DNA of 38,761 bases from Chitinophaga pinensis (GTDB taxonomy: Bacteria > Bacteroidota > Bacteroidia > Chitinophagales > UBA10324), in assembly GCA_945903305.1 (NCBI GenBank), contig CAMDOA010000019.1:1-38761 (forward strand), written 5' to 3'. Made by a program: the position numbers and the translations under genes. Positions 5,258 through 23,078 of this stretch are shown here, in pieces. Under the pieces are notes generated by a model, which searched no databases, had not been told where the DNA came from, and saw only the letters and a program-made list of their open reading frames with translations. Numbering within the stretch: position 1 is the first letter of the stretch; every line of letters begins with the position of its first letter.

Positions 5258-8200
5258 TTATTTTGCAGGATACAAAACCACTTTACCGAAGTTTTTATCG
5301 TCGAAGTGTTTTGCGGCTAATTGTTTGAAATCGTCGCTTTTCAGTGCACCGATTTGTGCATCGTAATTTTTTATTTCCGATACTTTCTCATTGTCCTTTA
5401 TTCCATTAACAATCAGGTTTAACCAGAAACGATTTTCTTTCAATGCAGCTTCGCGCTCTTTCAGCATCAGCTCTTTTACTTTCAACAGATTTTTATCATC
5501 ACAACCATTCATCTGAATTTCAGCAATTACTTTTCTTGCTGCGCCAATCAGTGTATCAATATTTTCAGGTGAGCAACTGAAATAAACAATCATGCGGCAT
5601 TGCGATTTCGGATAATGAACCATTTGAGGCGAAGCTGAAACACCATACACACCACTCATATCTTCACGCAATGATTCGCGCAATTTTATATTCACTAGTT
5701 TCATAAATGCATTCAACTCGTTTCTGTTGTAACGGTTGTATTCAAACGAACTTAAATACAACATGGCAACAGTGCTTTTTGGCTCAGTACCTTTATAAAC
5801 TTTTTTATTAAAGTTACCGGCCATCCATTTGATGTTATTATCCTTATAAGTTTCGGTTTTTCCTTTTGACGGAATGCCGCCAATGTATTTTTCAACCAAT
5901 GGCTTCAGTGCATCAGCCGTTACACTTCCGACAAAAACAAAAGTGAAATCGGCAGGATCAGCAAAACGCTCACGATAAATGCTATATGCTTTTGACAAAT
6001 TTATTTCATTTAACACCTGCTCATTCATTGGTTTGTAGCGACTATTATATGAATACATAATGGAAGTTAATGAATCGGAAAACACAGCACCCGGGTCATT
6101 ATTTTTATTCTGCAACTGTGTATGCAATTGTGAAATGTAGGAATTGAATGAAGTAGAATCTTTTCGTGGTTCAGTAAAATAGAGATTGGCAAACTGCAAT
6201 AAATTTTCCAGATCTTTTACGGAGCTGCTTCCATCTAATCCTTCAGTTAATTCACCAATATTCGGAGTAATACTTAAAACCATATTGCTCACATACTTGC
6301 TTAGTTCAACATTGTCGTAATTTCCTAAACCGGAATTATCAATGATTCCATCAGCATTGTTAGCCGATTGAAAATCTGATTCAGGATACAATGATGTGCC
6401 TCCCCAACTGAATGCATTAAAAAGAATCTGATCGTTTTTAAAATCAGTTTGTTTGAAAACCACTTTTGCGCCATTACTTAAAGTCCATGTAGTAATTGAA
6501 TTATCAGCATCAGTAGTTTCATTCAAAACTTTGCCGACAGTGATTTTTGTGTCGGTTAATTTTTTATCAGAAACTTTATCAGCATAAGCAGTGAGTTTGG
6601 TTTCGTTCGCTGTTTTAAAAATATTTTTTACCTGCTCTTCGGTTGGAATAATTAAACCTTCTTTCTCGGGTGAGGTAACTACAATCACGCAATTTTTTCC
6701 GTCAGTAATACACGATGAAAACATGTTGTTTACTTCGTCTAAACTGATAGAAGGAATTAAATTTTTGGTTGCTTCAAATTCCCATTCAATACCCGGAATA
6801 GGTTCGTTTTCTAAAAAGTTGGCAACATACTCGCGCACCAATGATTTTGATTCGGTTTTATCTTTTTCGTTAAAAGAAGTTTCGTAATTACGAATCATCG
6901 CTTGCTTGGCTCTATCCAATTCAGTAGCTGTAAATCCGAAATCTTTCACTCGTTTTATTTCAGAAAGTATAGTAGTAAGACCTCTGTCAACACCATTATC
7001 TGGCACCACACAATAAGCACCGAAACTACCTTTCTCCCGAACAAGGCTTCCGAAAAATGAACTTGAAAAAGTAAATGGCGGATTGCTTTGCTGTAATAAT
7101 TCGTTGTAACGGTCATTGAGCATACTGGTGGCAATACTTGATATCAAAGTATTTCGGTAATCATTAATTGTTTTTGAAGGGGCAACAGGTTGCTTGTAGT
7201 AAAGCTGAACCACAGTATAATCAGCTTCTTTATCGCTGCACACCGAAACTTTTAAATCATTGTGATCAGGAACAGTATATATGGGGCGTGGTTTTTCATT
7301 TACCGGATTTGGGATTTCAGCAAAGTAACTTTTAATCAATGCTTCAATTTTATCTACATCAATATCACCTACCACAACTACCGCCATTAAATCAGGTCGG
7401 TACCAGGTGGTATAAAAACTTCTGATGGTATCGTAAGGCGCTCCCTCAATAACTTCTTTAGTTCCGATGGGTAATCGCTCAGCATATCGCGAACCGAAAA
7501 ACATAATCGGAAAATACTTGCGGCGCATTCTTTCATCAGCACCTTGTCCGAGCCGCCATTCTTCAATCACCACACCGCGTTCTTTATCTATTTCAGCACC
7601 ATCATTGGTTACTAAGTGCGCCCACTCTTTCAAAATCTGAAAACCTTTTAAAAATATTTTTGCAGTATCAGTTGGCAATTGCAACATGTAAACTGTTTCG
7701 TCGAAACTTGTGTAAGCATTCAGGTCGGCACCAAATCTTGTTCCGATAGATTCCAGGTAATCTACCAACTCACTCTTCTTAAAATTTTTTGTTCCGTTAA
7801 AACACATGTGTTCGAGCAAGTGCGCCAAACCTTGCTGGTTATCGGTTTCCATCATAGAACCGGCGTTCACGGCCAACCTGAGTTCACAACGGTTTTCAGG
7901 TTTTTCGTTGTGCTTGATATAGTAGGTCATTCCGTTCGGAAGTTTACCCATCCGTACTTTAGGGTCAACAGGAACATTGCTTTTTAAGTCAGGTGTTTGA
8001 GAATAATTATTCAGATTTGTATCTGTAGAGATATAGGAATTATTTGCGCCATCTTTAGGGTCAACAGGAACATTGCTTTTTAAGTCAGGTGTTTGATAAT
8101 AATTATTCAGATTTGTATCTGTAGAGATATAGGAATTATTTGCGCCATTTAAAATTGTTAATGTTCCAGCGTTCGGGTCAAACTGAAATTTTCCGAGTTT

Positions 8201-8599
8201 AGCCATTGCAGTTTGTCCTAATAGTAATGGTGCTTTAAGTTCATGAACGATGGAGGCCTCAACATTTATCAGTGTTAATCCAGAGAATTCAATTTTTCTC
8301 AAAATAATTTTTGTACCCTCTGAAATACTTCCAGTCGCATCTGTAAAATTTTCTTTACCCAGTAAATCTTCTGGTTTTAAATAACCATTCTTTAACATGA
8401 ATAATGCTTCAGTCAATGAAATAGAAACATCACTCGCTCCGGTATCAAAAATGAATCTGAGAGGTAAACCATTTACTGAGCAAGGAACTATATAGACTCC
8501 CCCTTCCTTTTGCATATTAATTGTAGTCTGTCCAAAAGAAAAATGAATTTGTCCGATTAAAATAAGAGTAGTAATAGTTGTTAAAAATTGTCTTTTCAT
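5258..8599 (-). CDS. Retropepsin-like aspartic protease fused to an M16 zinc protease
   Basis: The 1113-residue protein is exported (signal peptide 1-24). Residues 25-150 form a retropepsin-like domain with the catalytic FDTGAS (Asp52) and the downstream LLLGQTAMAKLGKF flap and strand pattern of clan AA proteases. Residues 152-214 are a linker made of two near-identical 32-residue units. From about residue 216 comes an M16 (pitrilysin/insulysin) domain with the inverted zinc motif HLLEH (260-264) and the third-ligand region ERGVVIEE (340-347), followed by the usual second, non-catalytic M16 half to the C-terminus. M16 proteins of this class normally start just after the signal peptide, so the aspartic protease is an added module. 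It may cut peptides or release the M16 part; both are inference. The ATG at 8599 begins the signal peptide, and an exact-consensus promoter lies just upstream. Confidence 0.93.
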   Translation of the reverse strand: MKRQFLTTITTLILIGQIHFSFGQTTINMQKEGGVYIVPCSVNGLPLRFIFDTGASDVSISLTEALFMLKNGYLKPEDLLGKENFTDATGSISEGTKIILRKIEFSGLTLINVEASIVHELKAPLLLGQTAMAKLGKFQFDPNAGTLTILNGANNSYISTDTNLNNYYQTPDLKSNVPVDPKDGANNSYISTDTNLNNYSQTPDLKSNVPVDPKVRMGKLPNGMTYYIKHNEKPENRCELRLAVNAGSMMETDNQQGLAHLLEHMCFNGTKNFKKSELVDYLESIGTRFGADLNAYTSFDETVYMLQLPTDTAKIFLKGFQILKEWAHLVTNDGAEIDKERGVVIEEWRLGQGADERMRRKYFPIMFFGSRYAERLPIGTKEVIEGAPYDTIRSFYTTWYRPDLMAVVVVGDIDVDKIEALIKSYFAEIPNPVNEKPRPIYTVPDHNDLKVSVCSDKEADYTVVQLYYKQPVAPSKTINDYRNTLISSIATSMLNDRYNELLQQSNPPFTFSSSFFGSLVREKGSFGAYCVVPDNGVDRGLTTILSEIKRVKDFGFTATELDRAKQAMIRNYETSFNEKDKTESKSLVREYVANFLENEPIPGIEWEFEATKNLIPSISLDEVNNMFSSCITDGKNCVIVVTSPEKEGLIIPTEEQVKNIFKTANETKLTAYADKVSDKKLTDTKITVGKVLNETTDADNSITTWTLSNGAKVVFKQTDFKNDQILFNAFSWGGTSLYPESDFQSANNADGIIDNSGLGNYDNVELSKYVSNMVLSITPNIGELTEGLDGSSSVKDLENLLQFANLYFTEPRKDSTSFNSYISQLHTQLQNKNNDPGAVFSDSLTSIMYSYNSRYKPMNEQVLNEINLSKAYSIYRERFADPADFTFVFVGSVTADALKPLVEKYIGGIPSKGKTETYKDNNIKWMAGNFNKKVYKGTEPKSTVAMLYLSSFEYNRYNRNELNAFMKLVNIKLRESLREDMSGVYGVSASPQMVHYPKSQCRMIVYFSCSPENIDTLIGAARKVIAEIQMNGCDDKNLLKVKELMLKEREAALKENRFWLNLIVNGIKDNEKVSEIKNYDAQIGALKSDDFKQLAAKHFDDKNFGKVVLYPAK
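7957..8148 (-). repeat. 96-bp tandem duplication in the protease linker
   Basis: Units 7957-8052 and 8053-8148 are each 96 bp and differ at one base, which gives Ser in one copy and Tyr in the other (NNYSQTP or NNYYQTP). The unit is in frame and adds exactly 32 residues between the retropepsin and M16 domains. The near-identity points to a recent event. Confidence 0.95.
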
Positions 8600-8622
8600 T
8601 TTGTCTGTTTTTTTAAGGGAAT

Positions 8623-8652
8623 CAAAAGTAACAATACCTTTTGCAGTTGCAA
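8623..8652 (-). promoter_or_regulatory. Bacteroidota-type promoter of the retropepsin-M16 gene
   Basis: TTG (8652-8650), a 19-bp spacer and TACTTTTG (8630-8623) on the minus strand match the TAnnTTTG consensus. The -7 box ends 23 bp from the ATG at 8599. Confidence 0.6.
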
Positions 8653-8697: not shown

Positions 8698-9129
8698 ATG
8701 AAAAAAACAATCATCACACCTGAATACAGAGTAATTTATAAATTGCTGAATAAAAAAAGTAAAATTGAAGGAACCGGAGCTTACGCATTGCAAACAATAC
8801 CGGCACGAAAAAAAATAGGCGACCTTGGCGGAGTAATTATAACTGAACGAGAAGCCATAAAGCGCCGGAAGAATGTAAAGCAAATAGCCATGGTTGATTT
8901 AGAAAACAATTTGGTGTTGGATGCATCAGTCAATCCAAACTCATTGCGCTACATTAATCATTGTTGCGAACCCAACAGTTACATCAGAGTAACAAAAAAC
9001 AGAGTAGAGTTTTATTCGCTTCGGAAAATTAATATTGGCGAAGAACTCAGCGCCGACTATGGCGAAACTCATCATCATGGAACTTTGCCTTGCAGATGCG
9101 GAGCAAAAAAATGCAGGGGATTTATTTGA
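8698..9129 (+). CDS. SET-domain protein lysine methyltransferase
   Basis: This 143-residue protein is a compact SET domain. GTGAYA (25-30) starts the fold. RYINHCCEPN (84-93) is the pseudoknot motif that binds S-adenosylmethionine, and GEELSADYGE (114-123) holds the catalytic tyrosine. CRCGAKKCRG (132-141) is a post-SET zinc-type cysteine cluster. Such proteins methylate lysines of proteins; the bacterial target is unknown. The SWIB/H1-like protein encoded 3.2 kb downstream is a lysine-rich candidate, which is speculation. I chose the ATG at 8698 because the extension to 8641 runs back through the divergent promoter region and adds 19 residues outside the domain. Confidence 0.88.
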   Translation: MKKTIITPEYRVIYKLLNKKSKIEGTGAYALQTIPARKKIGDLGGVIITEREAIKRRKNVKQIAMVDLENNLVLDASVNPNSLRYINHCCEPNSYIRVTKNRVEFYSLRKINIGEELSADYGETHHHGTLPCRCGAKKCRGFI

Positions 9130-14951: not shown

Positions 14952-17900
14952 GTGTTGAAAAACCTAAATTGCAGCTTGAATTTCAAAACAGTTTTCACCT
15001 TGTTATTTAAAAGGTTTCTTGTTCAATTTATAAGTAGAAATATCGCTGAGTTTGAACTGCGGTATTTGCCTTGCATTGCACTTTGTTTTTTGCAATATAA
15101 CAAGTTGTTTTTTTCAAAGACTGCGATAATTATAATTTTTCACTTACTACTGACTATTCCGGTTTTAGCATCACCACCACCACCTACCAATGATGATTGT
15201 GCTAACGCAATTAATGTGGTTGTTAATGGGCCTGTTATAAGCGGCATTACACAGCAAGCATCTCTTGAGCCGGGTGAAATAATTGATTGTGCTCCTGTAT
15301 TGGTTACCCAAAGTGTTTGGTACTATTTTACAGCAACGGCCGCAAACATTTCTGTTTCTTTGACTTCTACTGCCGGAGCATGTTATTTTAGCTCGTCGAT
15401 ATGGGGAGCAAGTAATGGATGCCCGGCATCAACAGGATGCCATCCCCTATCTTGTCAATCTGCTTCATTTGGACCAAATACCTCAGCGCATGTACTAACA
15501 AATCTTACAATTGGCGCTAATTATTATATCCAGATTTTATATACCTCGGGCAGCGGAGGTTGTGGCGCTTCAGCAGGATTTGATGTTTCAGTTTCAACAA
15601 CTATTCCGGCAAATCCATCTAATCCACCTCCTGTTTCTACTTGCTCAACACCAACGGGTCCAATTTGTGTTTTAAATTTTATCCCAGGAACATACGCTCA
15701 AATTGCAGCTAATTGTACTTTATATAATAACCCTGCTGCTGCAAATAATAACAATGAAGTTTATCAGGCTTGTTTCAGTTTTACAGCACAGAATAGTTCG
15801 AACATTGATTTTCAAATGGCAAGTACTTCAACTTGCACCGGATTTTTTGTTTGGTTTAACTGGGAGTTATTTAATAGCTCTTGTAGTTCAATTGACTGTG
15901 GAACCTTTCCGGATATGAGTTCGAGCGGTTTAACCTGTGGAAATAATTATGAATTATGTATTTCTTATGAGATACCTGATCCTTGTGTTTATACCAGCAT
16001 TATTCCCTATATCACTGCCGTTCAGCCAATTTTAAATGTCACAGCTGCTGCAGGCAATTCATTAATTATATGTAGTGGATCTTCAACTTCATTAATTGCA
16101 AACGCAACAGGATATGTTGCGTATCAATGGACTCCTTCAACCGGTTTGAGTGCTACTACAGGTTCAACCGTTACTGCAAACCCAACCATTACTACAGTTT
16201 ATTCCGTTACCGGATTTGATGCCGGAGGATGTACGCAAACAGCAACAGTGAATGTGATCGTAAGGCCCATTCCGAATATTAATTTATCAGGAACTGTAAA
16301 TACCAGTTGCGGAAACGCAAATGGTATAATTAATAACACTACTAACGGAGGTGGTGCGCCATATACTTTTTTATGGAATACAGGTTCAACATTTGAAGAT
16401 TTATCCGGATTACTGGCTGGAACTTACACAGTAACCGCGACCAATTCGTTTGGATGTACTTCTTCAGCATCATTCACAATTAATAATGTTGGAAATTTTA
16501 CTGCCACATTCACTCAGGTTAATAATACATGTACTGGTGGTACAAGCGGAAGTATAAATGTAACGGTGCCTCCATGTGCACCTTATTGTCCTTACATTTA
16601 TTTATGGAATACAGGGGCTGTTACTCAGGATTTAGTTAATATTTTATCGGGTAATTATAGCATTACAGTTACGAATGGGGTAGGATGCACTTCGGTATTG
16701 AACCCAGTAATTACTTCCTTCTCTCCGCCAATAATTCTTTCATTTACAAATACCGGCGTCACTTGTTTTGGTGGAGCAACCGGAAACATTGATATGAGTG
16801 TAAGCGGCGGAAATCCGAACTATGCTTATGTGTGGAGCAATGGTGTTATTACTGAAGATAATCCAAATGTTTTTGCTGGTACTTATGCAATAACAGTTTA
16901 TGATTTATTGGGATGCAGCACGATTTCAAATACAACCGTCACGCAATTTCCTCCTATCAGTTTTTCATCGATTGCAACAAATATAACTTGTGGATCTTCT
17001 GCCAATGGTGCGGTTGATATATCAATTAGCGGAGGGAATCCGCTATATATTTTTAACTGGTCCGATGGGCAAACAACAGAAGATGCTGTTGGATTATCTG
17101 CAGGGCCTATTTCGGTAAATATTTTAGATCAGAGTGGTTGTTTTTATACATGGAATACAATTATTACCGGTGGAAGTAGTCCTGCAATTAGTTCAATCAC
17201 AACATACTCTTCATGTCTTGGGAATATAAATTTATCTGTTGCCGGTGGAACTGCACCTTATAATTATTTATGGAATACAACTGCAACAACGCAGGATATT
17301 TCAGGTTTAACAGGAGGCTCCTATTCCGTTACTGTTACTGATGCAAATATCTGCACACAAAGTTTATCAGTAATTATTGCCGCACCGAATACCAATGTAG
17401 TAACGCTTGTATCAGTAAATCCTACTTGCGGCGCAAATGATGGGGAAGCAGAAGTAAATGCAATATCCGGCGGAGGTGGACCATTTACATATTTATGGAA
17501 TAATGGTGGAACCGATTTTGAAATTGTTAATCTTTCTGCCGGAACTTATTCGGTTACAGTAACTAATTCATTCGGATGTACATCTACAACTTCTAATACA
17601 TTAGTTAGTCCGAACGGCCCTTCACTTTCATTTATGCAAAATAATGTTGTGTGTAATGGTAGTTCAACAGGAAGTATCAATATGACAGTCACAGGAGGTA
17701 CCGGACCATTTCTTTATAATTGGAGTAATAATTCAGTTGTTCAGGATCCTACAAATTTAAGTGCAGGTGCATATAATGTTTCAGTAACCGATGCAAACAA
17801 TTGTGTGGTTACCGGCAGTGTTGTTATTACACAAAACGCAGCAACAGTTTTAAGTCAAACATCTGTTAATTCAACTTGTAGTTTAGGTAATGGCAGTGTT

Positions 17901-20900
17901 GATTTAACAGCAGTTGGCAATGGTCCTTTTACTTATTTGTGGAACAATGCTTCAACTGATCAGGATCTTCCTTTTGTTGGTGCCGGAAATTATTCGGTGA
18001 CCGTTACTGATATAAATAATTGCACAAGCACATTATCATTTGTGGTAAATAATACACCAGGGCCTTCATCACTTTCGTTTAATCCTACTCCTGTATTTTG
18101 TAACGGGGCAGCAACCGGAATTATTGATTTAACAGTAATTGGAGGTATACCACCATTTACATATGCATGGAACAACGGCGCAACTACGCAGGATATTTCC
18201 GGCTTAACCGCCAATACTTATACAGTGAATGTAACTGATGCAAATAATTGCGTGGTTGGAAGTGGAATTATTATCTCACAGCCTGCGGCTAATGTTATTT
18301 CTGAAACACATGTAAATGCAACATGTGGATTATCCAACGGATCAATCAATCTTTCTGTTGCCGGACCAAATCCTCCATTTACTTATTTATGGAGCAATGC
18401 AGAAATCACTCAAGACATATCAATTCTTATAGCCGGAGCATACACTGTAACAGTTACGGATTTTAATTCTTGTACTAGCACACTCACTGTAAATATCAGC
18501 AACACAAGCGGACCAGTTTTATCAGAAACACATGTTGATGTTTTGTGCAATGGAAATAATTCAGGAAGCATAAACCTTTCAGTTGTTGGTGGAACAACAC
18601 CATACAATTATATCTGGAGCAACGGATCAATTATTCAAGACCCGCCAAATTTGATTGCAGGAAATTATATAGTCACGGTTACCGACTTCAACAATTGTCA
18701 ATCAACTTTAACAATTAACATTTCAGAGCCAACAGCCATAGCATTATCAGAAACACATATTGATGCCAGTTGCGGCACCGCAAACGGAAGTATAAATCTT
18801 ACGGTAGTTGGAGGCACATCGCCATACACATTTTTCTGGAGCAACACCGCAATATCAGAAGATATAAATTCAATTCCGGCCGGAACTTACACAGTAACAG
18901 TAGCTGATTTTAATAACTGCACAACTACACTCACTGCAAACATCAGCAACACAATTGGCCCAACATTATCAGAAACACATGTTGATGTTTTGTGCAACGG
19001 AAATAATACCGGAAGCATAAATCTTTCAGTTGTCGGTGGAACAACACCATACAATTATATCTGGAGCAACGGATCAATCATTCAAGACCCGCCTAATTTG
19101 ATTGCAGGAAATTACACAGTCACAGTAACTGACTTCAACAATTGTCAATCAACTTTAACAATAACTATTTCCGAACCAACAGCAATTTCAATCAGCGAAA
19201 CGCATGTTGATGCAAGTTGCGGAACATCAAACGGAAGTATAAATATTTCAGTTGTTGGTGGCACATCACCTTACACTTATTTATGGAGTAATGCAGCAAT
19301 CACCGAAGATTTATTAAACATTCCTGCCGGAGCATATACAGTTACAACAACAGATTTTAATTCGTGCACCAGCACACTCACTGCAAACATCAGCAACACA
19401 AGCGGACCAGTTTTATCAGAAACACATGTTGATGTTTTATGCAACGGAAATAATACCGGAAGCATAAATCTTTCAGTTGTAGGCGGACAAACTCCATACA
19501 ATTACATCTGGAGTAATGCTGCAACAACAGCTAATATCTCAACGCTAGTAGCTAACAACTATACTGTCACAGTAACCGACTTCAACAATTGTCAATCAAC
19601 TTTAACAATAACTATTTCCGAACCAACATTAATTACAATAAGCGAAACACATGTTGATGCAAGTTGTGGAACAGCAAACGGAAGCATCAATCTATTAGTT
19701 GTTGGCGGCACATCGCCTTACACATTTATTTGGAGCAATGCAGCAACAACAGCTAATATCTCATTGCTAACTGCTAACAACTACTCTGTTACAGTAATTG
19801 ATTTTAATTCGTGCACCAGCGCGCTCATAATTAATATTCAGAACGGTATCGGTCCAAACCTGAGTGAAACACATGTGAATTCTACTTGCGGAAACGCCAA
19901 TGGGGCAATAAATCTTTCCGTGGTTGGCGGACAAAATCCATATACTTATTCATGGAGTAATGGTTCAGTTTTTCAGGATTTGGTTTTTTTAAATGGAGGT
20001 AATTATTCTGTAACTGTAACTGATAATAATAATTGCACATCTTCACTTTCCATTTCTATTACAGGCAGTACAGCACTTGTATTACAATCTGTAGTTAATG
20101 AAGTAACCTGTTTTGGATTTAATGATGGCGCTATTGACTTAACGGTTAATGGAGGAACCGCTCCATATATTTATGATTGGAGTACCAATGCCACTACACA
20201 GGATTTATCCGGAATCAGTGGCGGAAATTATACTATAACAGTAACTGACTTTATCGGATGCACAACTGATGAAACCATTAATGTTGTTGAACATGCACAG
20301 CTTACACCAAGCCAAACACATGTGAATGAAACTTGCGGTCAATCAAATGGCAGTATTAATTTAAACACAGTCGGGGGTTATTTTCCATACACATTTTTGT
20401 GGAGCACGAATGCAGTCACACAGAATTTAACAGGAATAACTGCAGGAAATTATTCGGTAACCGTTACTGATTTTAATTTATGTACCGCTGTTTTAAATGT
20501 GGTGGTAACCGGAACTTCAGGACCAACCGCACAATTTGCAAACACAAATTTGTTGTGCAACGGAAGCGCAAGCGGAGCAATAAATTTAACCGTAGTTGGC
20601 GGCACGCTGCCTTACACTTATTTGTGGAACACCAATTCAACAAATCAGGATATCAATAATCTTTCAGCCGGAAATTATATAGTTACAATTACGGATGCAA
20701 ACAATTGCACAGGAACGGGCAACACTAACATCACTCAACCGAGTGCATTACAACTTTCCGAAACACATGTGAATGCTTCATGCGGAACTTCAAACGGCGC
20801 TATTGATTTAACAGTCATCGGCGGCACAACACCTTACAGTTTTATTTGGAGCAATGCTGCCATTACGCAAAATTTAACTTCGCTTGCTATTGGAACTTAT

Positions 20901-23078
20901 GATGTAACCGTTACTGATTTTAATAATTGCACTTCAACGCTTTCAATAAATATTATTAACGGAGGTGGAACACTCTCATTAAGTTTTATTTCAACAAATG
21001 AAACATGCAGCGCTGCAAATGGCGCTATTGATTTAAGTGTGAATGCCGGAACCGCACCTTACAATTTTATATGGAGCAATGCGGCAATTACCGAAGACCT
21101 GAATTTGATCAGTGCAGCAACTTATGATGTAACAGTGAATGACGCTGGCGGATGTTCAGCAACAATTTCAGTAATAATTTCCAATACTCCATCACCCCAA
21201 CTTTCAGTAACGCATGTTGATGAAACCTGTGGCAATGCAAATGGCTCTATTGATTTAACAGTGGCTGGAGGCACATTACCAATAAATTATTTGTGGAGCA
21301 ATGCATCAATAAACGAAGACCTTACTTCACTCGCAGCTAACAATTATACTATTACAGTTACTGATGCTAGCAATTGCACGGCAACTTTAACGGTTCAGAT
21401 TTTAAATTCAGCATCCCCGGTAATTAATCAAACACATGCTGATGAAAATTGTAACCAGGCAAACGGAAGTGTTGATTTAACAATCAGCAACGGAGCATTA
21501 CCAATTAATTTTAGCTGGAGCAATGGAGCGGTCACTGAAGATCTAACAAATCTTGCCGCTGGAAATTATTCGGTTACAGTTACAGATGCCAACGGATGTT
21601 CAGCTTCGCAAACTATTTTGTTAACAAATATTGCCGGACCACTATTGATTGAAGTACATATTTCAACTTCGTGCGGGTTAAACAATGGAAGCATTGATTT
21701 GACAGTAATTGGTGGCGTCGCACCTTTCAACTATTTATGGAGCAATGGTGCATTGACTCAGGATTTGCAAAACCTTGCGGCTAATACATTTGATGTAACC
21801 GTTACTGATGCAGGCGGATGTACTGCCGCACTTTCAGGAATTGTAATTAATACAAGTACTTCAATTCAGGTAAGTGAAACGCACACTTCATCCACCTGCG
21901 GAAATGCAAATGCTGGAATTGATATTACTGCTTCGAGCGGAAGTGCACCATACAATTATTTGTGGAATAACAATACGGTATCAGAAGATTTAACAGCTGT
22001 TTTATCCGGAAATTATTCGGTAACGGTAACTGATAATGCCGGATGTACAGCTTCAATAAATATTTCTGTAATTGATTTTGCAGGTCCGCAATTAATAATT
22101 ACACCCACTGCCACTTCATGTGGAAACAATGATGGAACGATTGACCTGACAGTAAACGGTGGAACAGCCGCCTTTAATTATTTGTGGAGCAATGGTGAAA
22201 TATCAGAAGATGTATTATCACTTCAGGGAGGAAATTATATTGTTACAGTAACTGATGCGAATGGATGTACCGCATCAATAAGTACTGATGTTATTGCTTC
22301 TACTTATCCTTTATTAAGCGTAAGTATTTCAGGTAATAATGGTTGCATTCCTTTGACTGTTTTATTTACAAACATGAGTACAAACTCGGTATCGTACACT
22401 TGGATTTTTGGTGATGGTTCAACTTCAAATTCTGTTTCTCCTTCATATCAATACAATCAGGTTGGAATTTTTCCGGTAATACTTATTGCAACGAGCACTA
22501 CAGGATGTATGGATACATTGGTTGTAGATACAGTTTCTATTTATGAAACACCTATTGCCAATTTTACTTCGGCACCATGGATGGATGCTACAACTTTACT
22601 ATCACTTGCCGACTTTCAATTTATTAATCAATCGGTTTTTGCTGCAACATATTTTTGGAGTTTTGGCGATGAAAATTATTCAGCCGATATGAATCCGAAT
22701 CATATTTATTCTGAGGCAGGTGAATATATGGTTACTCTTTACGCTTACAACGAAAACGGCTGCGCCGACACTGTTTCGTACGGACCATTTATTATGATTG
22801 CTGACGGTGAAATATTTATACCTAATACATTTACTCCAAACGGAGATAACTGGAATGATTTCTTTAAAGTTTATGGAACCGGAATAGATAATGTAAGTAT
22901 GCAGATTTTTGACCGATGGGGCGAAATGATATTTGATGGAAATGGAACATCGCCGCAGTGGGATGGCAGTTATCATAATACAAAATTGAATACCGGTGTA
23001 TATGTTTATCAGATTTCAGTAATTCGATATAATGGTTTAGTAATCAGAAAAACCGGTGATGTAACCTTGCTCAGATAG
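14952..23078 (+). CDS. Giant SprB-repeat surface adhesin, T9SS type B substrate
   Basis: The protein is about 2700 residues. There is no ATG before the first domain. GTG 14952 follows a possible -7 box (14937-14944), and TTG 15105 would start a tighter signal peptide (FFSKTAIIIIFHLLLTIPVLA). Domains in order: two Cys-rich beta-sandwich regions (about 75-365), an Ig-like domain, 27 SprB repeats of about 74 residues (442-2450; each has Y-x-W-S/N, then AGNYTVTVTD and N-x-C-T), two PKD domains with FGDGST and SFGDENYS (2453-2615), and a C-terminal CHU_C domain (IFIPNTFTPNGDNWNDFF, FDRWGE, WDGSY, GVYVYQI). That last domain targets proteins to the T9SS as type B cargo. SprB is a gliding-motility adhesin; this one is a likely adhesin, and gliding itself is not shown. 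Confidence 0.95.
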   Translation: MLKNLNCSLNFKTVFTLLFKRFLVQFISRNIAEFELRYLPCIALCFLQYNKLFFSKTAIIIIFHLLLTIPVLASPPPPTNDDCANAINVVVNGPVISGITQQASLEPGEIIDCAPVLVTQSVWYYFTATAANISVSLTSTAGACYFSSSIWGASNGCPASTGCHPLSCQSASFGPNTSAHVLTNLTIGANYYIQILYTSGSGGCGASAGFDVSVSTTIPANPSNPPPVSTCSTPTGPICVLNFIPGTYAQIAANCTLYNNPAAANNNNEVYQACFSFTAQNSSNIDFQMASTSTCTGFFVWFNWELFNSSCSSIDCGTFPDMSSSGLTCGNNYELCISYEIPDPCVYTSIIPYITAVQPILNVTAAAGNSLIICSGSSTSLIANATGYVAYQWTPSTGLSATTGSTVTANPTITTVYSVTGFDAGGCTQTATVNVIVRPIPNINLSGTVNTSCGNANGIINNTTNGGGAPYTFLWNTGSTFEDLSGLLAGTYTVTATNSFGCTSSASFTINNVGNFTATFTQVNNTCTGGTSGSINVTVPPCAPYCPYIYLWNTGAVTQDLVNILSGNYSITVTNGVGCTSVLNPVITSFSPPIILSFTNTGVTCFGGATGNIDMSVSGGNPNYAYVWSNGVITEDNPNVFAGTYAITVYDLLGCSTISNTTVTQFPPISFSSIATNITCGSSANGAVDISISGGNPLYIFNWSDGQTTEDAVGLSAGPISVNILDQSGCFYTWNTIITGGSSPAISSITTYSSCLGNINLSVAGGTAPYNYLWNTTATTQDISGLTGGSYSVTVTDANICTQSLSVIIAAPNTNVVTLVSVNPTCGANDGEAEVNAISGGGGPFTYLWNNGGTDFEIVNLSAGTYSVTVTNSFGCTSTTSNTLVSPNGPSLSFMQNNVVCNGSSTGSINMTVTGGTGPFLYNWSNNSVVQDPTNLSAGAYNVSVTDANNCVVTGSVVITQNAATVLSQTSVNSTCSLGNGSVDLTAVGNGPFTYLWNNASTDQDLPFVGAGNYSVTVTDINNCTSTLSFVVNNTPGPSSLSFNPTPVFCNGAATGIIDLTVIGGIPPFTYAWNNGATTQDISGLTANTYTVNVTDANNCVVGSGIIISQPAANVISETHVNATCGLSNGSINLSVAGPNPPFTYLWSNAEITQDISILIAGAYTVTVTDFNSCTSTLTVNISNTSGPVLSETHVDVLCNGNNSGSINLSVVGGTTPYNYIWSNGSIIQDPPNLIAGNYIVTVTDFNNCQSTLTINISEPTAIALSETHIDASCGTANGSINLTVVGGTSPYTFFWSNTAISEDINSIPAGTYTVTVADFNNCTTTLTANISNTIGPTLSETHVDVLCNGNNTGSINLSVVGGTTPYNYIWSNGSIIQDPPNLIAGNYTVTVTDFNNCQSTLTITISEPTAISISETHVDASCGTSNGSINISVVGGTSPYTYLWSNAAITEDLLNIPAGAYTVTTTDFNSCTSTLTANISNTSGPVLSETHVDVLCNGNNTGSINLSVVGGQTPYNYIWSNAATTANISTLVANNYTVTVTDFNNCQSTLTITISEPTLITISETHVDASCGTANGSINLLVVGGTSPYTFIWSNAATTANISLLTANNYSVTVIDFNSCTSALIINIQNGIGPNLSETHVNSTCGNANGAINLSVVGGQNPYTYSWSNGSVFQDLVFLNGGNYSVTVTDNNNCTSSLSISITGSTALVLQSVVNEVTCFGFNDGAIDLTVNGGTAPYIYDWSTNATTQDLSGISGGNYTITVTDFIGCTTDETINVVEHAQLTPSQTHVNETCGQSNGSINLNTVGGYFPYTFLWSTNAVTQNLTGITAGNYSVTVTDFNLCTAVLNVVVTGTSGPTAQFANTNLLCNGSASGAINLTVVGGTLPYTYLWNTNSTNQDINNLSAGNYIVTITDANNCTGTGNTNITQPSALQLSETHVNASCGTSNGAIDLTVIGGTTPYSFIWSNAAITQNLTSLAIGTYDVTVTDFNNCTSTLSINIINGGGTLSLSFISTNETCSAANGAIDLSVNAGTAPYNFIWSNAAITEDLNLISAATYDVTVNDAGGCSATISVIISNTPSPQLSVTHVDETCGNANGSIDLTVAGGTLPINYLWSNASINEDLTSLAANNYTITVTDASNCTATLTVQILNSASPVINQTHADENCNQANGSVDLTISNGALPINFSWSNGAVTEDLTNLAAGNYSVTVTDANGCSASQTILLTNIAGPLLIEVHISTSCGLNNGSIDLTVIGGVAPFNYLWSNGALTQDLQNLAANTFDVTVTDAGGCTAALSGIVINTSTSIQVSETHTSSTCGNANAGIDITASSGSAPYNYLWNNNTVSEDLTAVLSGNYSVTVTDNAGCTASINISVIDFAGPQLIITPTATSCGNNDGTIDLTVNGGTAAFNYLWSNGEISEDVLSLQGGNYIVTVTDANGCTASISTDVIASTYPLLSVSISGNNGCIPLTVLFTNMSTNSVSYTWIFGDGSTSNSVSPSYQYNQVGIFPVILIATSTTGCMDTLVVDTVSIYETPIANFTSAPWMDATTLLSLADFQFINQSVFAATYFWSFGDENYSADMNPNHIYSEAGEYMVTLYAYNENGCADTVSYGPFIMIADGEIFIPNTFTPNGDNWNDFFKVYGTGIDNVSMQIFDRWGEMIFDGNGTSPQWDGSYHNTKLNTGVYVYQISVIRYNGLVIRKTGDVTLLR
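16274..22306 (+). repeat. 27 SprB repeats (about 222 bp each)
   Basis: The region encodes 27 successive SprB repeats, counted by the Y/F-x-x-W core followed by the conserved VTVTD and Cys. The first unit starts near ISNLSG/SCGNANG and the last ends just before the first PKD domain. Repeats 1-9 and 17-27 have diverged; repeats 10-16 are much more alike. Confidence 0.9.
18501..19841 (+). repeat. 447-bp higher-order repeat within the SprB array
   Basis: Three units start at 18501, 18948 and 19395, and the next homologous boundary is at 19842. Each is exactly 447 bp (149 residues) and contains two SprB repeats. The segment ETHVDVLCNGNN and the following SINLSVVGG recur with high DNA identity, so the array grew by recent duplication of a two-repeat unit. 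Confidence 0.9.

Follow-up and report, generated by a model that had tools for sequence, protein, structure and literature searches.

How could an aspartic protease of the retroviral type and a zinc metallopeptidase come to occupy a single, probably exported polypeptide chain? The question is raised by a gene of Chitinophaga pinensis located in what we call the window, that is, the entire analysed stretch of 38,761 nucleotides (contig CAMDOA010000019.1 of GenBank assembly GCA_945903305.1), which is one complete contig of a 3.12 Mb assembly of 138 contigs (99.2% complete, 2.6% estimated contamination). A single open frame without internal stop codons (positions 5258–8599, minus strand) makes up the whole fused gene and encodes 1113 amino acids, with the retropepsin preceding a linker and the M16 protease (Table 1). 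As far as structure and evolution are concerned, we hold it to be highly probable that a cassette carrying the retropepsin has replaced the signal peptide of an M16 enzyme, as judged from the anatomy of the gene, its predicted fold, the kept catalytic motifs, the absence of the retropepsin from the M16 orthologues of relatives and the place of the junction.

The original prediction, made from the sequence alone, had placed a DTG motif at residues 52–54 and an HLLEH motif at residues 260–264 of one frame, and had taken them for two unrelated catalytic domains of a secreted chain. Both motifs were found at exactly these positions, and Pfam recognizes both domains: gag-asp_proteas at residues 38–132 (E 2.9e-10; 41 bits, the cut-off being 28.2) as well as Asp_protease_2 (E 2.4e-9), and Peptidase_M16 at residues 230–348 (E 2.2e-25) with two Peptidase_M16_C stretches (E 1.1e-44). 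These assignments, together with the fold, rule out chance matches to the two motifs. The N-terminus (residues 1–24) is hydrophobic and ends in FSFGQ; signal peptides, here and throughout the module family described below, were judged by eye. The open frame, the Pfam domains and the hydrophobic start thus bear out the notion of two unrelated catalytic domains in one chain, which is probably exported.

The M16 half appears, from its sequence, to be complete as a PqqL/FusC-like M16B zinc peptidase, and peptidase activity is predicted. It matches solved structures over nearly its full length, namely 9ldy (E 1.9e-170), PqqL (6ofs, E 5.8e-88) and 6brs/6b03 (E about 3e-54). Two fused halves lie in one M16 chain, with two M16_C stretches and with residues 1–895 of the M16 part aligning with 9ldy. 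The zinc-binding motif His260-Leu-Leu-Glu-His264 is aligned with its counterparts in 9ldy and PqqL. The signature of M16 peptidases consists of HxxEH and of a Glu about 76 residues further on, and Glu340 is most likely the third zinc ligand. Although PqqL (6ofs), FusC (6b03, 6b05) and 9ldy are near full-length matches in which the HxxEH motif and the ERGV region are aligned, their chains differ from the window protein in lacking a retropepsin. The NCBIfam equivalogs YfmH, pitrilysin and PqqF were considered and rejected, with scores far under their cut-offs. Elsewhere in the assembly, M16 matches were limited to two distant proteins (33% and 29% identity), and the window gene is the sole copy of its orthologue found there. 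Pairwise ratios of non-synonymous to synonymous substitution rates (dN/dS) range from 0.045 to 0.090 for pairs that include the window genome, as compared with 0.049–0.109 for the other pairs, dS being saturated in every pair except one; the enzyme looks to be under constraint.

The retropepsin half, a domain of about 120 residues, contains one DTG. Its catalytic Asp and Gly are invariant in 66 of 66 aligned modules (65 loci plus the window), and the window module holds all 12 residues, these two included, that are invariant in a separate alignment of 80 members from which it was absent. The hydrophobic-hydrophobic-Gly motif expected in the second half of the retropepsin fold is present as LLLG at residues 125–128. 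In an AlphaFold2 model of residues 25–214, based on a 66-row alignment, the predicted local distance difference test (pLDDT) averages 81–98 in 10-residue blocks over model residues 1–120. The closest solved relative is APRc (RC1339) of Rickettsia conorii (5c9b/5c9d/5c9f), by both sequence and fold: a profile of 16 modules detects it in the PDB with E 2.2e-11 (5c9d), Ddi1 following weakly at E 0.01, and it ranks first for the module model in Foldseek (E 5.8e-10) and in VIA-align (Z 14.7, 123 aligned residues, root-mean-square deviation 2.9). As in the window module, each APRc chain bears a single DTG. The two nevertheless share only 18–21% identity in structural alignments, the solved APRc chains carry no metalloprotease, and the window module is set apart by two features of its Bacteroidota family, the region 'EALFMLKNGYL' and the motif LLLGQ(S/T)A. 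The curated NCBIfam model TIGR02281 (clan_AA_DTGA) does not recognize it (35.8 bits against a cut-off of 57.95). Structural matches behind APRc in the Foldseek and VIA-align comparisons are lentiviral proteases, Ddi1 and the C-terminal domain of Rv0977 (4ehc, Z 12.5), which we take to be a PE_PGRS domain related to PecA. PecA (PE_PGRS35) of mycobacteria, an aspartic protease located at the surface and part of a multidomain chain, is self-cleaving according to the available portion of PMC6819658; it differs from the window protein in partner and secretion route, and the likeness noted here is one of description.

Comparison with relatives gives the fusion its history. An M16 orthologue is present in all five same-genus genomes (79–84% identity), aligned only from residue 200 of the fused protein on; in one of them (G002) it lies in two pieces on two contigs. 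In the four relatives whose M16 starts were read (L004–L007), a plain signal peptide is directly followed by AQT or AQN and the start of the M16 enzyme. The similarity of the window protein picks up at residues 200–201, by eye at most about two residues from the expected end of the relatives' signal peptide, which suggests that the incoming signal peptide, retropepsin and tail replaced the old signal peptide only. The DNA just 5′ of the start codon is likewise inherited: it is closest to that of L005, can still be recognized in L006 and L007 and is less clear in L004. Within it lies a match to TTG-N19-TAnnTTTG, which we take to be a Bacteroidota promoter type; since the window holds one match for 1.64 expected by chance, this candidate is backed by conservation alone, and a scan for promoters of the sigma-70 type was uninformative (19 sites versus 15.2 expected in the window). 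Further upstream, the SET gene, CysK and the next genes occur in the same order in three relatives (G001, G003, G004), while among the four compared these SET/CysK neighbours were not found near the M16 gene of G005. As a separate observation, the M16 orthologue of another relative (G056:C41:339529-342261) has one in-frame TAG.

The resemblance of the incoming piece to a TPR protein of Flavobacterium luteum (L063) starts within the signal peptide, at residue 9, and ends at residue 153; this protein bears the same cassette, with 72% identity over the module, and the resemblance to another locus, L067, extends to residue 166. The module is missing from all 15 other genomes of the family in the sample, and its ten best other matches (56–62% identity) all belong to other families of the order. 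Its G+C content at third codon positions (GC3) is 0.21, as compared with 0.34 for the M16 part and 0.24–0.44 for 16 other genes of the window, a modest sign of an outside origin. The fusion is therefore probably real and recent. The original prediction had pointed to absence from close relatives, combined with an assembly error, as what would undo it: the fusion is indeed absent from all five same-genus genomes, whereas an assembly error is not supported, given the flanks, the frame and the lack of a second copy.

It had also flagged the frame through positions 7950–8150, which proved to be intact. This stretch consists of two copies of a 96-bp unit (7957–8052 and 8053–8148) that differ at one base and encode the linker, residues 151–214. 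Residues 152–214 are predicted to be disordered, with pLDDT below 50 at model residues 128–190. The duplication arose with or after the joining of the cassette to the M16 gene; the number of copies in the assembly could be wrong.

A second retropepsin–M16 fusion was not found among the matches listed in samples of 99, 396, 395 and 395 genomes, which overlap. In the first, which includes the window genome itself, two other listed matches touch the retropepsin part (G084, G025), without M16. In the phylum sample, 184 of 395 genomes match the fused protein at E <= 1e-20; with two candidates scored per genome, both halves are covered, among the matches listed, by the window gene only, and the match in G632 is a module alone in a 193-residue frame. 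Queried with the module, the order sample yields matches in 24 of 396 genomes at E <= 1e-3, the window genome included; none of the 26 matches outside the window gene has a frame longer than 698 residues, which leaves no room for an M16 of the window type next to the module. A module profile applied to the class sample matches 21 of 395 genomes at E <= 1e-8, with 22 other matches in frames of at most 689 residues and at most 11 candidates scored. An old fusion common to the group finds no support in the same-genus, order and phylum scans. A phage-borne origin was also considered: viral contigs gave, among 41 pattern matches, three relatives, of which two are modules of nearly full length (52% and 40% identity) and the third is short; HxxEH was not found in the open reading frame (ORF) of any of them, and this does not explain the window gene. 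HxxEH was absent from all 83 module ORFs collected from genome and viral contigs, six of which run off an end, so that a partner could be missed there (at the start in L069, L070, L121, L122 and L145, at the end in L105).

The original prediction knew of no described protein with this pairing, and we came across none in these scans or in the open-licence literature (titles, beginnings of abstracts and best matches listed), where no paper joining retropepsin with Bacteroidetes, or gag-asp_proteas with Peptidase_M16, was found either. The available portion of an M16 review (PMC12731061) does not contain the terms 'aspartic', 'fused' or 'additional domain', and that of a clan AA survey (PMC2642776) has no 'bacteria', 'fused' or 'TPR' and nothing on bacterial partners. 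The pairing is new, built of two known kinds of enzyme and seen in one genome only.

The module itself is widespread and changes partners. Of 520 pattern matches in a scan of genome contigs, 463 proved to be relatives, with records from Bacteroides and Prevotella among them; the 80 that we retained include some places already represented by loci of the order sample. Pfam aspartic-protease families match all 80, and TPR_2 is found in 42 of the 80. In 42 module proteins scanned singly against Pfam, two of them from viral contigs, the partners are TPR (eight, two below the family cut-offs), SH3-type (five, three below), FISUMP (three), Lcl_C (two, one below the cut-off), MORN (two), FKBP (one) and NAGPA (one), and 20 had no Pfam partner. 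Partner labels come from these scans and from that of L063; the others were given by eye, for example most rows with TPR before the module, L035, L041, L070, L076, L078, L083, L087, L092 and L096, as well as L074, L075, L085 and L103, in which Pfam found no partner. Partners are found on either side of the module; the window gene has the family layout of a signal peptide, then the module, then a variable partner, and differs from the other proteins of this kind in that its partner is M16. The open-licence literature, within the scope given above, yielded no description of such a module.

The module alignment comprised 65 of the 83 loci plus the window, the other 18 being omitted for brevity and without a formal rule, and the tree, with eight loci of the order sample added, has 74 rows and leaves 28 of its 71 inner branches open. 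In this quick tree the modules of two TPR proteins and of an Lcl_C-like protein (a label below cut-off) join that of the window in a four-row group (SH-aLRT, the Shimodaira–Hasegawa-like approximate likelihood ratio test, 96); the nearest relatives of the window module have TPR, FISUMP, SH3-like or Lcl_C-like partners. The 12 partner labels require at least 27 changes on the tree as compared with a minimum of 11; each of 200 shuffles required more (mean 48.1). Partner switches thus exceed the minimum and yet partners are partly inherited, and strongly supported branches force only one to three changes per label. Some architectures look stable, such as TPR before the module in Bacteroidales.

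Several members deserve mention in their own right. L071:4420-5550, from Crocinitomicaceae, combines a signal peptide-like start and the retropepsin with FKBP_N and FKBP_C and is another enzyme carrying the cassette; in L045:685-1866 a NAGPA phosphodiester glycosidase precedes the module. The TPR protein L156:153-1673 (G843:C87) has two retropepsin-like modules, the first with LDFGCDG where DTG is expected and the second with MIFDTGA, and is possibly a natural covalent pseudo-dimer of a retropepsin. One genome harbours two adjoining module genes (G839:C103:426-791 and 1127-1492). Modules with 66% and 61% identity were found in L066 and L095 (Clostridiaceae and a Clostridia metagenome-assembled genome, on contigs labelled Bacillota); mislabelled or contaminated bins are likely, since L066 is nearly identical in the tree to L070 of Flavobacteriaceae.

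What would such a chain do? Retropepsins are active as homodimers, each of which needs two DTG halves, so two chains would have to meet. In the explanation that we favour, to which we assign a probability of about 0.5 as a whole, the cassette (signal peptide, retropepsin of about 126 residues and tail) would have replaced, in frame, the signal peptide of an exported PqqL/FusC-type M16, leaving the upstream region of the M16 gene and the whole enzyme intact, and the 96-bp duplication at the joint would have doubled the linker. The chain would be exported, two chains would pair via their retropepsin domains, and the dimer would cut the disordered linker, in cis or between chains, thereby freeing a normal M16, with an N-terminus about as that of the relatives after signal peptidase, and a small retropepsin dimer. 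We infer the steps of export, dimerization, linker cleavage and separate action afterwards, the cleavage model being drawn from APRc, PecA and retroviral proteases. In the available text of PMC4140852, APRc dimerizes and its autoprocessing depends on the catalytic Asp, and the human immunodeficiency virus 1 (HIV-1) and xenotropic murine leukaemia virus-related virus (XMRV) proteases, like APRc, process themselves from longer chains; PecA, in the portion cited above, cleaves itself (PMC6819658). By this analogy it is plausible, as had been proposed at the outset, that the aspartic domain processes its own chain, while self-cleavage of the linker, taken as the mechanism, is a tentative proposal falling somewhat short of even odds. 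Two points weigh against this scheme: in the wider family the module is often C-terminal of its partner (TPR), a place from which it cannot be a removable N-terminal piece, and the fusion is seen in a single genome, a draft with the contamination estimate given above.

Alternatively, the two proteases may stay tethered, the retropepsin making first cuts in proteins and the M16 chamber degrading the peptides, or the retropepsin dimer simply pairing two M16s, with the long linker providing reach. The 64-residue, mostly disordered linker, lengthened by duplication, would suit this arrangement, and M16 enzymes are clam-shell peptidases of which several act on peptides such as presequences (PMC12731061, in its available portion). 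A parallel is RimBK, in which, as far as the accessible text of PMC11957791 goes, the retropepsin-like RimB is fused to the N-terminus of its working partner RimK, much as in the window protein, and the hybrid has protease activity. The likeness is again one of description, and the pairing differs in that RimBK targets a polyglutamylated ribosomal protein whose polyglutamate is made by RimK. Against tethering, none of the partners recognized in the 42 module proteins is a protease, so the family implies no shared peptide pathway, which the original prediction had offered as a second possibility, and the self-processing of APRc and of the HIV-1 and XMRV proteases out of longer chains (PMC4140852, available text) points the other way. 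We consider permanent tethering rather unlikely.

More doubtful still is that the retropepsin is a passenger, or acts non-proteolytically in peptide binding or dimerization, having been gained by chance with the signal peptide, so that the M16 would be unchanged and the added domain neutral. Such a history would agree with the occurrence in one genome only, with the kept upstream side and with the apparently unchanged constraint on the M16, within the limits of saturated dS. All 12 invariant residues have nevertheless been kept, the catalytic Asp and Gly included, in a family whose 80 members all match Pfam aspartic-protease families, although this is a weak argument, because in a very young fusion they would be expected to persist for some time anyway. 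The remaining explanation, an assembly or binning artefact joining retropepsin and M16 genes from different places or organisms, could draw on the absence of the retropepsin from all five same-genus relatives, on the near-perfect repeat at the joint, where assemblers can slip, and on the lower GC3 of the module, but it is very improbable, and a chimera of two contigs unlikely, because ancestral flanks on both sides of the insert (M16 and SET gene), as in three relatives, would call for two errors. In addition, the reading frame runs on through the joint, nothing of the old signal peptide remains, a search of the assembly turned up neither a residual M16 orthologue nor a further module, and the repeat copies differ at one base.

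Table 1. Features of the fused gene and its upstream side (positions in the window)
Feature	Positions	Strand	Basis
Fused gene: retropepsin, linker, M16 protease	5258..8599	-	ORF and Pfam
Putative signal peptide, residues 1–24, part of the retropepsin cassette	8528..8599	-	Hydrophobic start, by eye
Retropepsin (clan AA) module, residues 25–150; D52-T-G at 8438-8446	8150..8527	-	Pfam, alignments, AlphaFold2, APRc match
Linker, residues 151–214, two 32-residue repeats	7958..8149	-	96-bp direct repeat; low pLDDT
M16B single-chain zinc protease, residues 215–1113, PqqL/FusC-like; H260xxEH264 at 7808-7822	5258..7957	-	Pfam, PDB matches
Upstream region inherited from the ancestral M16 gene; promoter-like TTG-N19-TAnnTTTG at 8623-8652	8600..8652	-	Alignment with four same-genus relatives
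Divergent SET-domain gene, neighbour kept in 3 of 4 relatives	8698..9129	+	Pfam SET, E 8.3e-16; synteny

Elsewhere in the window, a plus-strand gene (14952-23078) encodes 2708 residues; SprB repeats (24 stretches) and PKD were recognized in the protein together with a CHU_C type IX secretion signal, and the DNA of the gene includes three tandem 447-bp copies. Near the contig start, positions 116-342 hold a tandem repeat of 21-bp units, with 8.5 copies at 75% matches in 116-293 and rows of longer period up to 342.

The interpretation put forward in the original prediction is thus borne out in part; it did not recognize the retropepsin as a module that is widespread in Bacteroidota and swaps partners, the window fusion being, for this reason, one more combination of a promiscuous cassette. 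Together, the window gene and its relatives show the states before and after the birth of a protein with two proteases: the upstream side and the M16 are the same, with and without the retropepsin. Beyond this single case they point to a partner-swapping aspartic protease module across Bacteroidota, which is more interesting than the fusion itself. It is tempting to speculate, although we would not consider it likely, that a mobile cassette consisting of an export signal and a self-acting retropepsin spreads in Bacteroidota by taking the place of the signal peptide in various unrelated secreted proteins (M16, FKBP, FISUMP, TPR, SH3-like, MORN, Lcl_C), making its partners retropepsin-released or retropepsin-controlled, as the cell's equivalent of the processing of retroviral polyproteins; the window gene would then be a fresh example whose unfused ancestor persists in sister species. 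If the module does free or control its partners, many exported proteins of Bacteroidota would be processed by an enzyme resembling the HIV protease.

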